From Candidatus Nitrosopumilus sp. (lineage in GTDB: Archaea > Thermoproteota > Nitrososphaeria > Nitrososphaerales > Nitrosopumilaceae): a stretch of DNA of 37,506 nucleotides. Below, one piece after another: positions 1,871 to 5,187 of this stretch; position 1 is the stretch's first letter, and each line of letters opens with the position of its first letter. The stretch spans positions 1 to 37,506 of the forward strand of contig JAONKT010000004.1 of NCBI GenBank assembly GCA_028377625.1, given 5' to 3'. Position numbers and translations under genes: made by a program. The notes under the pieces are model-generated. The model did not search any database. It was not told the origin of the DNA and saw nothing but the letters and a program-made list of their open reading frames with translations.

Positions 1871-1888
1871 TATATCTTTTGATAATCA
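1871..1888. promoter_or_regulatory. Putative operator shared with the PII-extension gene
   Basis: TATATCTTTTGATAATCA matches the left part of the palindrome at 4511-4528 (TATATCATTTGATAATCA) at 17 of 18 positions. It lies between the divergent PII and amt promoters, just upstream of the PII TATA-like box and about 25 bp upstream of the amt one. A protein bound here could act on both. The core TTTGATAATCA is itself nearly palindromic. Confidence 0.5.
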
Positions 1889-1942
1889 TTGTAAATCAAA
1901 TTGGAAAACTGTTAAATGCAAAAACTCGATTTCATTATAATT

Positions 1943-3238
1943 ATGATTGATACTGGAGATACAGCATGGATGTTAATTGCTGGATGTTTAGTATTGTTAA
2001 TGATTCCTGCACTGGGATTATTTGAATCTGGTTTATTGAGAAAGAAAAATGTGGTTTCAATTTTTATGCAAATATTTTTCGGAATGTCATTACTTAGTGT
2101 AATGTGGTTTGTTTTTGGATTTAGTCTCTCTTTTGGTCCTTCTACAACTGGTATCATAGGTAATCTTGATTGGTCATTTTTGAAAGGTATTCCTTGGGAT
2201 GCACCTTTAGAACAATATGCACCTAGTATACCTGGCGTTCTCTTTGTTAAATTCCAATTAATGTTTGCATGTATTACTCCGTTATTACTTACTGGAACAA
2301 TCGCTGAAAGAATGAAATTTAGCTCATTTATTATATTCATATCTGCATGGTCAATGCTAATCTACTATCCAATCGTTCACATGGTCTGGGGTGGTGGATG
2401 GTTAGCACAACTAGGTGTCGTTGACTTTGCTGGTGGTATTGTTATACATACTACTGTTGGAATGGCTGCACTTGCAGCTGCTCTTGTACTTGGAAAAAGA
2501 CGCGGATTTGGTCCAGCAATAAATATTCCACATAGTATTCCTCTTGCTGTATTAGGTTCTTCATTATTATGGCTAGGTTGGTTTGGATTTAATGCCGGTA
2601 GTGCATTAGCATCTGGCGGTGTAGCTGGAAATACCGTTATTGTAACTCACTTAGCTTCTTCAGTTTCCGCTTTAATTTGGGCAGGGTTGTCTTGGATGCG
2701 TACAGGTAAACCATCAATTGTTGCAACCATTAATGGTGCAATTGCTGGACTTGCAGGAATCACACCTGCATCTGGATATGTCAGTGTTGAACATGCATTT
2801 GTTCTTGCAATAGCAATAGGTGTACTATCTTATGGTGGAGTTGTACTAATTCGAGATAAATTAAAAATTGATGATGCACTTGATGTAAGTTCTGTACACG
2901 GCATTGCAGGTATTGTCGGTGCACTTGGAATTGGTATCTTTGCAAGTACTTTGATAAATCCTTCTGGAGTTGATGGATTACTATATGGTAATTATGATCA
3001 AATTTGGATTCAAGGTGTTGGAATTGCAGTAGCTGCTGCAATGGGATTCGGTGGAACCTGGATATTATTACAATTAATTAAACATCTAATTGGAATTCGT
3101 GTTGAACCTGAAGAGGAAGACATTGGTTTAGATATTAGTGAACATGCTGAACAAGCTTACTCTGACGAAGAGGAGTTTAAGTTCACTCCAAATGACTACA
3201 TGCAACCATCTAACAAAGACAAATCAAATAGTTCTTGA
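1943..3238 (+). CDS. amt: Amt-family ammonium transporter
   Basis: This channel passes ammonium into the cell, supplying nitrogen and, in an ammonia oxidiser, possibly substrate. It has about 11 hydrophobic spans. Counting from the longer ATG at 1916, it shows the two pore histidines (H155 in YYPIVHMVWGGG and H328 in VSSVHGIAG), the Asp of VVDFAGG (D170), and the phenylalanines of QLMFACITP (F117) and WFGFNAG (F225). The C-terminal tail is long and acidic, ending in Asn/Ser-rich sequence. The ATG at 1943 (MIDTGDTAW) is preferred over 1916: it removes nine residues that do not fit the family, and GTTAAATG at 1911-1918 is then about 28 bp upstream as a TATA-like box. The divergent PII gene is the expected partner. 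Confidence 0.93.
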   Translation: MIDTGDTAWMLIAGCLVLLMIPALGLFESGLLRKKNVVSIFMQIFFGMSLLSVMWFVFGFSLSFGPSTTGIIGNLDWSFLKGIPWDAPLEQYAPSIPGVLFVKFQLMFACITPLLLTGTIAERMKFSSFIIFISAWSMLIYYPIVHMVWGGGWLAQLGVVDFAGGIVIHTTVGMAALAAALVLGKRRGFGPAINIPHSIPLAVLGSSLLWLGWFGFNAGSALASGGVAGNTVIVTHLASSVSALIWAGLSWMRTGKPSIVATINGAIAGLAGITPASGYVSVEHAFVLAIAIGVLSYGGVVLIRDKLKIDDALDVSSVHGIAGIVGALGIGIFASTLINPSGVDGLLYGNYDQIWIQGVGIAVAAAMGFGGTWILLQLIKHLIGIRVEPEEEDIGLDISEHAEQAYSDEEEFKFTPNDYMQPSNKDKSNSS

Positions 3239-3279
3239 TGTTAGATGGATGATGACAAAGATTATGAAGAGAGACCTGA

Positions 3280-3672
3280 ATGGGAATGGCTGAAGAAATA
3301 ATTACAGAACCAAACTATGAAAAACTTTGTTCCAACATCATAAATTCTAGTGAACATATTCGTTTTGCAGGATTTGTAAATGATAAATCCAAAATATTAC
3401 ACAGTTCAGAAAGAGATAACCTTGATCCTCTTTTATCTGACCATGAAATTGGAATGTCCATTCATTACACTTTGGAGAGATGGAGAAAGGCACAAAATTT
3501 TACATTTCGTTTAGGTAAGGAGAGGTTAACTTTTACTGAATATGATCAGGTAACATTAGTTACAATTCCGTTTAAGGGAAAATTATTACTTGTAAGTACT
3601 GAACCACGAATACATTATGATCCAATTATAGAAAAAATTAATTCTATCTTAACTGACTGGGAGAAATTATAG
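3280..3672 (+). CDS. Small thaumarchaeal protein, DUF6659-like
   Basis: This 130-residue soluble protein starts with a helix and contains a strand-rich core (FAGFVNDKSKILHSSER, then TYxQVTLVTIPFKGKLLLVSTEP). The pattern resembles the profilin- or roadblock-like small domain proteins common in thaumarchaea and grouped, from memory, as DUF6659. Their function is not known. A start at 3286 (second ATG) is equally possible; a stop lies in frame just before 3280. It sits 41 bp after amt and 1 bp before the reductase gene, so the three are probably co-transcribed. Link to nitrogen control is inference from this position. Confidence 0.6.
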   Translation: MGMAEEIITEPNYEKLCSNIINSSEHIRFAGFVNDKSKILHSSERDNLDPLLSDHEIGMSIHYTLERWRKAQNFTFRLGKERLTFTEYDQVTLVTIPFKGKLLLVSTEPRIHYDPIIEKINSILTDWEKL

Positions 3673-3673
3673 C

Positions 3674-4495
3674 GTGGAAAATGGCACCATTTCCTATACT
3701 CAATTATTAAGAGAGGATTTAGGAATTTTTCGTGTTACTCCAGATGATGGGGTTCCTGATTTTAAAGCTGGCCAATTTTTGACGCTTGGATTACCTCTTG
3801 AAAGTAAAATTGTTAATCGTGCATATTCTATTGCGTCCTCTCCTGAGAATAAGAAATTTTTTGAATTTGTGATTAGATGGGTTAGAAGGCCTCTTCCTGG
3901 AAGATTAACCAGTTTGTTGTTTAACGCAAAAGAAGGTGACAAAATTAGTTGGGCAAAACCTGCTGGTAATCTTACAATTAATGATACATTAGCAAATGGT
4001 GAAAAAGATTCAAGAAGAATTGTTTGTATTGGTGGTGGAACTGGTTTAGCACCTTTTGTGAGTTTTGCACAACATCTTCACGATACTAATGATAAAAGAG
4101 AGATTGTTGTTTTACACGGTGCAAGCTACGTTGATGAATTAAGTTACAAACAACTCTTGACTGATTTAGAAAATGAAAGTATTGACAAAGGTAAAGATAA
4201 ATGGAATTTCAAATATAGAGCAGCAATTAGTAGACCTGAAGAATGGACTAATCGTGCATGGCATGGTCATAAGGGTAGAATTGAACAATTTTTAAGATCT
4301 AATGATGCTGGGAAGTCCCCTCTTGAAGAATTGGTTGGTGAGAAAATTACTGCAGAAAATACCATGTTTTACGTTTGTGGATGGCAAGGAACTATTGATG
4401 GAACTATGGATTATTTGAAAAATAAAAATTTTGTAACTGAAAAAAATAAACGTGAAGATGGAAGTTATGAAGTTAAATTCGAATCCTATGGATAA
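3674..4495 (+). CDS. Ferredoxin/flavodoxin-NADP+ reductase-like flavoprotein
   Basis: The 273-residue protein has the FAD-binding RAYSIASSP motif (about residues 49-57) and then an NAD(P)-binding domain with GGGTGLAPFVSF. It ends with YVCGWQGTIDGTMDYL, the usual C-terminal nucleotide-site region. This is the FNR/Fpr layout, so it probably moves electrons between NAD(P)H and ferredoxin or another small carrier in the cytoplasm. The start is GTG at 3674, one base after the stop of the preceding gene; no ATG is available near it. A DUF6659-like gene and amt lie upstream. Reduced ferredoxin feeds nitrite and glutamate metabolism in many organisms, which would fit this block, but the partner cannot be read from the sequence. 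Confidence 0.85.
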   Translation: MENGTISYTQLLREDLGIFRVTPDDGVPDFKAGQFLTLGLPLESKIVNRAYSIASSPENKKFFEFVIRWVRRPLPGRLTSLLFNAKEGDKISWAKPAGNLTINDTLANGEKDSRRIVCIGGGTGLAPFVSFAQHLHDTNDKREIVVLHGASYVDELSYKQLLTDLENESIDKGKDKWNFKYRAAISRPEEWTNRAWHGHKGRIEQFLRSNDAGKSPLEELVGEKITAENTMFYVCGWQGTIDGTMDYLKNKNFVTEKNKREDGSYEVKFESYG

Positions 4496-4511
4496 TTAAA
4501 AATGTATTTTT

Positions 4512-4536
4512 ATATCATTTGATAATCAAATGATAT
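4512..4536. promoter_or_regulatory. Perfect 12+12 bp palindrome, probable operator
   Basis: The arms ATATCATTTGAT (4512-4523) and ATCAAATGATAT (4525-4536) are exact reverse complements around a single A. A one-base loop makes an RNA hairpin unlikely and a dimeric protein site likely. It lies about 45 bp upstream of the TATA-like box of the PII-extension gene. Its left part, with the base before it (4511-4528), recurs between the PII gene and amt at 1871-1888. A looser similar element (TATATCAT then ATTATCATT) follows at 4554-4574. Confidence 0.6.
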
Positions 4537-4578
4537 GCATTTAGTAACAAATTATATCATTATGAAATTATCATTAGC

Positions 4579-4585
4579 TTTAAAA
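4579..4585 (+). promoter_or_regulatory. TATA-like box of the PII-extension gene
   Basis: TTTAAAA is centred 27 bp upstream of the TTG at 4609. This places the transcript start at or next to that codon and supports the TTG start. Confidence 0.5.
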
Positions 4586-4608: not shown

Positions 4609-5187
4609 TTGAAAAAGATTGAGGCTATTATTAATCGAAAAAATTACCCCTCAATTCGTGAAAAATTAGATGCTTTAGGCATAGATATTATTGATAAACG
4701 AAATTTAGAAGATAGTAGATTTACCAGTCAGTCAAAAGGATCTAGAGTTGGCGGATCTGCAGTAAGATCTACAATGCTTGCAAAAATCGAATTAGCAATG
4801 TCTGATAAAGTTGCACGAGAAGTAGTTGATATAATTTCTAAAAATTCAGGACTTCCAAAATCTATTCCAAGTAAAATTTTTGTCTTTGACATGCAAGAAA
4901 CAATTGATCTCAATACTCTAAAAGGTGAATCTGAAACAGAAGCAGAATCTGAAGAAGAAGTTTCAGTTACTCCTAGATTTGTTACTAAACGTAATAGACT
5001 AGTCCCACTTCAAAAAAGAACATTATACAAATTAGAACAATATTATGATAAACATAGTGAAGTTCTAGAATCTGATTATAGAATTCGTTCGTTTAGTGAT
5101 TTTGTTAATTACTGCATAATGAAATATTTACCAACACTTGATAAACAATTAAAGAACCAAACAATTCTTTATGAAGATGTTTTATAA
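4609..5187 (+). CDS. PII-like domain with a C-terminal ribbon-helix-helix-like extension
   Basis: Residues 1-101 follow the PII fold: MKKIEAIINRKNY, a helix, a strand, a loop with GSRVGGSAVRST, the strand MLAKIELAM, a helix (DKVAREVVDIISKNSG), then SKIFVFDMQETIDL. The last stretch corresponds to the PII GKIFVxxVEEAIRI region. An acidic linker (about 106-118) leads to a basic 70-residue tail. In the tail, RLVPLQKRTLYKLEQYY and RSFSDFVNYCIMKYLPTLD resemble the strand-helix and second helix of a ribbon-helix-helix DNA-binding domain. That assignment is by eye. The start is TTG at 4609, giving the MKKIEAII start usual in PII; no ATG fits. The gene follows the reductase gene after 113 bp containing the palindrome. 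It could be a nitrogen-responsive regulator. Confidence 0.72.
   Translation: MKKIEAIINRKNYPSIREKLDALGIDIIDKRNLEDSRFTSQSKGSRVGGSAVRSTMLAKIELAMSDKVAREVVDIISKNSGLPKSIPSKIFVFDMQETIDLNTLKGESETEAESEEEVSVTPRFVTKRNRLVPLQKRTLYKLEQYYDKHSEVLESDYRIRSFSDFVNYCIMKYLPTLDKQLKNQTILYEDVL

Follow-up and report, generated by a model that had tools for sequence, protein, structure and literature searches.

The promoters of the ammonium transporter gene amt and of its divergent neighbour glnK in Nitrosopumilus are preceded by a tandem array of the 9-bp palindrome TGATWATCA, and a second array of the same kind stands in front of a nearby gene in the window, that is, in the whole stretch of 37,506 nucleotides analysed here. 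We consider it probable that a single regulator uses both sites as operators, and the best candidate is the product of that nearby gene (4609-5187), a PII domain fused to an RHH-like domain, which we call PII-RHH. As putative operators read from the sequence, the arrays are well supported, and PII-RHH is inherited all-or-none with the module glnK and the Amt1-type Amt.

Results

Two arrays of short palindromes in the window

The window belongs to a genome of the Nitrosopumilus group (733 kb, 59% complete), and its genes follow the order glnK (minus strand), amt (plus strand), a DUF6659 gene, an oxidoreductase gene and the PII-RHH gene (plus strand). The glnK gene (1499-1828) encodes a canonical PII protein of 109 aa (PF00543, E 1.8e-14), and amt (1943-3238) encodes an ammonium transporter (PF00909, E 1e-112; TIGR00836 above cut-off) of Amt1 type, meaning an Amt that has glnK beside it, according to the typing of PMC9277239 and PMC7490402. 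The two genes are divergent in those relatives that possess the module. Further downstream on the plus strand are the genes of a DUF6659 protein (3280-3672; PF20364, E 1e-6), which genomes of the window clade carry between amt and PII-RHH, and of an FAD/NAD-binding oxidoreductase (3674-4495; PF00175 and PF00970). The PII-RHH gene encodes 192 aa and is identified by PF00543 (E 1.4e-6), by Foldseek matches to PII structures and by its orthologues.

A preliminary description of this DNA had noted a perfect 12+12 palindrome at 4512-4536, which is exact (ATATCATTTGATAATCAAATGATAT, centred on A4524) and moderately unusual, since inverted repeats with arms of at least 12 are expected 0.04 times per window in first-order Markov copies. 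It is also correct that 1871-1888 and 4511-4528 match at 17 of 18 positions, but the accompanying claim that such a match is unlikely by chance was wrong as stated: counting 18-mers that match at 17 or more positions over the whole window, we saw 74 such pairs, where random copies would give about 26. The match alone therefore proves nothing, and the support comes from conservation.

We then scored three copies of TGATWATCA at a period of 10-11, a pattern built from the glnK/amt promoters of relatives. Results showed that this three-box score reaches at least 20 at just two places in the 37.5 kb, and these are the two noted sites. Array 1 (1869-1898, with no strand) consists of the boxes 1869-1877 (TGTATATCT), 1880-1888 (TGATAATCA) and 1890-1898 (TGTAAATCA) and scores 22, a value matched by none of 2000 randomised intergenic regions; orthologous arrays exist in 55 genomes and in other genera. 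Array 2 (about 4509-4550, likewise with no strand) contains the 12+12 palindrome and is made of the boxes 4509-4517 (TTTATATCA), 4520-4528 (TGATAATCA) and 4531-4539 (TGATATGCA), followed by a decayed box at about 4542-4550; it also scores 22 (P about 0.001), and three-box arrays occupy the corresponding position in most of the clade, as also in Nitrosopelagicus. In addition, TGATWATCA-N2-TGATWATCA with at most 3 mismatches gave 3 overlapping matches in the window, solely at the noted sites, where 0.45 are expected. What stands at these sites is in truth a series of 9-bp palindromes in tandem, and the 25-bp palindrome is one genome's version of it.

TATA-like boxes had been placed close to both sites, and we find three such elements, with the arrays lying upstream of them. 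From their sequence, they would serve the glnK promoter (1851-1862, AAATTATTATTT on the minus strand, 23-34 bp 5' of the glnK start), the amt promoter (1911-1919, plus strand, 24-32 bp 5' of the amt start at 1943) and the PII-RHH gene (TTTAAAA at 4579-4585, plus strand, conserved in the clade, 24-30 bp 5' of the TTG start).

We also asked whether the 25-bp palindrome could be an RNA hairpin serving the oxidoreductase gene, which ends at 4495, as terminator or 3' end signal, with its likeness to 1871 arising by chance. It lies 16 bp past the oxidoreductase stop codon, folds as RNA at -12.1 kcal/mol (z -2.5), and 17/18 matches are, as said, common by chance in the window. However, no terminator was called at 4512-4536 and no T-run follows, and on these grounds the terminator reading was rejected; moreover, relatives carry a tandem array at this place and not a single long palindrome, and the same array separates glnK from amt, two divergent genes with no transcript end between them. 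A hairpin is thus a very improbable explanation.

The glnK/amt array is conserved among relatives

Each of the 55 Nitrosopumilus-group genomes examined has an array in its glnK-amt intergenic region, so that the motif, whose absence from orthologous regions would have spoken against it, is in fact conserved there, with intergenic scores of 20-27. Among 11,000 random copies the commonest three-box score was 17 and 15 copies reached at least 22, while the upstream regions of the Amt paralogue, taken as a control, scored 16-19 (28 cases). Abundance tells the same story, as a search of 95 Nitrosopumilus-group genomes gave 155 matches to the two-box pattern and 14 to its reversed control; each genome has one or two arrays by the two-box search, and no more. 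The preliminary description had looked for conservation in front of amt, glnK and glnA homologues, and this holds for amt and glnK, with no glnA site seen. Recurrent pattern matches such as TAATTCTCAAATGATTATCA were rejected as sites because they lie inside a conserved coding gene.

The operator unit is the palindrome TGATWATCA in up to three copies with a period of 11 bp, or of 11 followed by 10 in the window clade; a clear example is TGATAATCA-AA-TGATAATCA-AA-TGATAATCA in the glnK-amt intergenic regions of L018, L026 and L030. The distance between the glnK start codon and the array is 40-43 bp in 53 of the 55 genomes, and that between its other end and the amt start is 41-44 bp in 52, a spacing that is kept although the box sequences vary from clade to clade. 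In the main clade the best-conserved positions are the box ends, with a variable central W and variable spacers, which is the pattern expected of symmetric recognition. The array is also found in Nitrosopelagicus and Nitrosarchaeum and, in weaker form, in Nitrosocaldus. In a San Francisco Bay genome (L296:4821-4941) it has grown to 11 perfect 11-bp copies of TTTGATAATCA between glnK and amt.

Many of these genomes are congeneric, and the conservation might reflect close kinship alone, the array being an AT-rich repeat with no function. We regard this as highly unlikely, considering that conservation falls on the box positions and not on the spacers or the central base, that the arrangement persists in other genera and between clades with PII-RHH proteins of about 55% identity, and that arrays occur at a second, non-homologous promoter.

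A separate observation concerns the Nitrosotenuis-type genomes (L222, L224, L307, L309, L315), which lack a TGATWATCA array 5' of their glnK-like gene and share there another conserved element, of the CTATATTCCACTATATAG type. The PII-RHH tail is more diverged in these genomes.

Arrays at the PII-RHH and antiporter genes

Three boxes are present 5' of the PII-RHH gene in most of the window clade, L013 and L156 being without them, and the array of L150 is perfect (TGATTATCA-AA-TGATTATCA-TC-TGATAATCA). Nitrosopelagicus-type genomes also have an array 5' of this gene, and in the majority of the remaining Nitrosopumilus there is no more than a single weak box. This distribution suggests that shared control of glnK and amt would be general and that full-array control of PII-RHH's own gene would be lineage-specific. 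The earlier proposal, that one regulator governs amt, PII and the PII-extension gene (here PII-RHH), is therefore supported as a putative regulation, general for the glnK/amt array and restricted to some lineages for the last gene.

A two-box site of the TGATAATCTTTTGATAATCA type was found 5' of a Kef-type antiporter gene in 10 of 10 sampled window-clade genomes with PII-RHH, among them the window's own genome (L168, contig C1), where it reads TGATAACTTTTTGATAATCA, and also in a few main-clade genomes. The site has decayed in G017 and G115 and is kept in G024 and G111, which have no PII-RHH match, making the co-loss test equivocal.

A PII protein with a DNA-binding-like domain

PII-RHH consists of a PII domain (aa 1-101), an acidic linker and, at about aa 127-176, a conserved C-terminal domain with a predicted strand-helix-helix make-up. 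The protein matches PF00543 with 29.0 bits against a cut-off of 25, and Foldseek relates it to GlnZ and GlnK structures with probability 1.00. Of the classical PII residues Q39, K58, K90, R101 and R103, which we take to be the usual ATP/2-oxoglutarate contacts, the K90 equivalent alone is kept in the alignment, the residues aligned with the other four being different.

The C-terminal domain (4987-5138, plus strand) is predicted to comprise a strand with the basic segment KRxRxVPLQK (KRNRLVPLQK in the window) and two helices, with a core pLDDT of about 95 in a single-chain prediction, and in its alignment 10 columns stay invariant all the way from Nitrosopumilus to Nitrosocaldus. Foldseek on this domain gave nothing significant; the re-aligned rows listed with Z of at least 2 were all CdbA, PutA RHH or TCP domains, which are DNA-binding domains of RHH or TCP type, with low Z values of 2.2-3.1. 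At the sequence level, none of 33 members matched a Pfam RHH family, hhalign against RHH_1 proteins of the same phylum scored 8.5, below shuffled controls (up to 14.9), and Pfam, PHROGs, NCBIfam and PDB sequence searches gave the domain no name; no relative of it was found in viral contigs. As sequence profiles fail to place the tail in RHH, 'RHH-like' is our reading and membership is unproven.

Two further observations touch this domain. To our eye, helix B (SFSDFVNYCIMKYL) is similar to the SRSExIRxALxxYL helix of RHH domains. Moreover, a stand-alone 70-aa protein of the PII-RHH tail family is encoded at L036:1477-1689, near what we read as a viral portal protein gene, which hints at a link between the domain and mobile elements.

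PII-RHH is inherited together with glnK and Amt1

PII-RHH is present in one copy per genome in Nitrosopumilaceae and Nitrosocaldaceae, with a fused frame of about 186-243 aa. It co-occurs with the module glnK in 55 Nitrosopumilus-group genomes, and the two discordant genomes (G097, G035) are cut at contig ends. On the other side, 13 near-complete genomes without an intact PII-RHH are also without the module glnK and Amt and keep the Amt paralogue alone. The PII-RHH gene adjoins glnK/amt in most Nitrosopumilaceae; in Nitrosocaldus it is divergent from amt, with a conserved two-box site.

This all-or-none loss of the module agrees with the reported absence of a low-affinity Amt from deep-sea lineages (PMC7490402). 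Other reports on Amt1 come from laboratory evolution of SCM1, in which Amt1 was mutated to near fixation (PMC7490402), and from a bloom lineage in which it decreased (PMC11334935). The decrease in that lineage and the fall of Amt1-type transcripts in SCM1 at low ammonia (PMC9277239) fit nitrogen control of the module Amt.

Two complete genomes have a damaged PII-RHH. A remnant of the module is seen in G083 (L160, G083:C1:1178661 onward), where PII-RHH ends after 88 codons and neither glnK nor the module Amt is present. In G063 (L121, G063:C1:522625 onward), presumably N. maritimus SCM1, an in-frame TGA lies within the RHH-like part and the operator is kept, and relatives of G063 have intact copies. 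In SCM1, Amt1-type transcripts drop at low ammonia (PMC9277239); considering the TGA, either this strain has lost PII-RHH control or the response there needs no PII-RHH.

Such cases bear on the possibility that the arrays are real and bound by another transcription factor, for instance of Lrp/AsnC type or another HTH protein, with PII-RHH using protein contacts or other DNA. Sites are kept despite a broken or missing PII-RHH (G063 at glnK/amt, G024 at the antiporter), and the lack of sequence-profile support for RHH membership of the tail points in the same direction. On the contrary, the all-or-none inheritance of PII-RHH with glnK and Amt1, its conserved adjacency, the arrays that precede the PII-RHH gene in two lineages and boxes repeated at every helical turn, a period common for RHH proteins, all argue for PII-RHH; with one or two arrays per genome, a local, dedicated regulator is also a better fit than a global one. 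We therefore consider a different binder unlikely and PII-RHH the likely one.

Discussion

In the mechanism that we propose, dimers of the RHH-like domain of PII-RHH would bind side by side on up to three TGATWATCA boxes and, as the boxes are one helical turn apart, would share one face of the DNA. PII proteins are trimers and, speculatively, a pair of PII trimers could provide the three RHH dimers that three boxes call for. The glnK/amt array, just 5' of both core promoters, would control both genes; in the window clade the second array would control PII-RHH's own gene, and the two-box site preceding the Kef-type antiporter gene may add a further target. Nitrogen or energy status, sensed by the PII domain, would alter DNA binding, and in this way the levels of Amt1 and GlnK would be set together. 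We infer the RHH fold, the signal and activation in preference to repression, the last being a guess: arrays located upstream of, and not over, the TATA-like elements favour activation, though they may instead act by blocking.

PII-RHH shares with the PII (GlnB/GlnK) and AmtB control system its N-terminal 100 residues, which belong to PF00543, and the location of its gene beside glnK/amt. PII proteins known so far exert their control by touching their target proteins directly (PMC4274968). Unlike them, PII-RHH carries a C-terminal DNA-binding-like domain.

In its design only, PII-RHH resembles NikR, as both join a small ferredoxin-like ligand sensor and an RHH-type DNA-binding domain in one protein. 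NikR has an N-terminal RHH domain and a nickel-binding ferredoxin-like ACT sensor; in PII-RHH the domain order is reversed and the sensor is PII (PF00543) instead of ACT, which places it outside the NikR type, and the NikR operator has two separated half-sites in contrast to the tandem 9-bp palindromes found here. MetJ, Arc, CopG and PutA are RHH repressors whose adjacent dimers bind boxes over the core promoter. The adjacent dimers on repeated or palindromic boxes that we propose would be the same, and PutA RHH is among the structural matches, whereas the PII-RHH tail has no sequence-profile match and a longer first helix, and its sites lie upstream of the core promoter. Finally, NrpR, the 2-oxoglutarate-responsive nitrogen repressor of methanogens, likewise regulates nitrogen genes in archaea, glnK-amt among them, but it is an unrelated protein, and its operator GGAA-N6-TTCC differs from TGATWATCA, so the module does not belong to an NrpR regulon.

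Our literature searches found no PII protein with its own DNA-binding domain, and the papers on ammonia-oxidizing archaea that we found mention PII proteins solely as regulators of assimilation or transport and name no transcription factor for the ammonium-uptake genes. It seems reasonably likely that a PII protein is itself a transcription factor here, coupling nitrogen status directly to Amt1/glnK transcription in Nitrosopumilaceae and Nitrosocaldaceae without an NtrB, PipX/NtcA or TnrA partner. If true, this would be a PII protein touching DNA directly, whereas known PII proteins work through partners. Ammonia-oxidizing archaea are among the commonest cells of the sea, and for the control of their ammonium uptake this analysis offers a candidate regulator, an exact operator and a small regulon.
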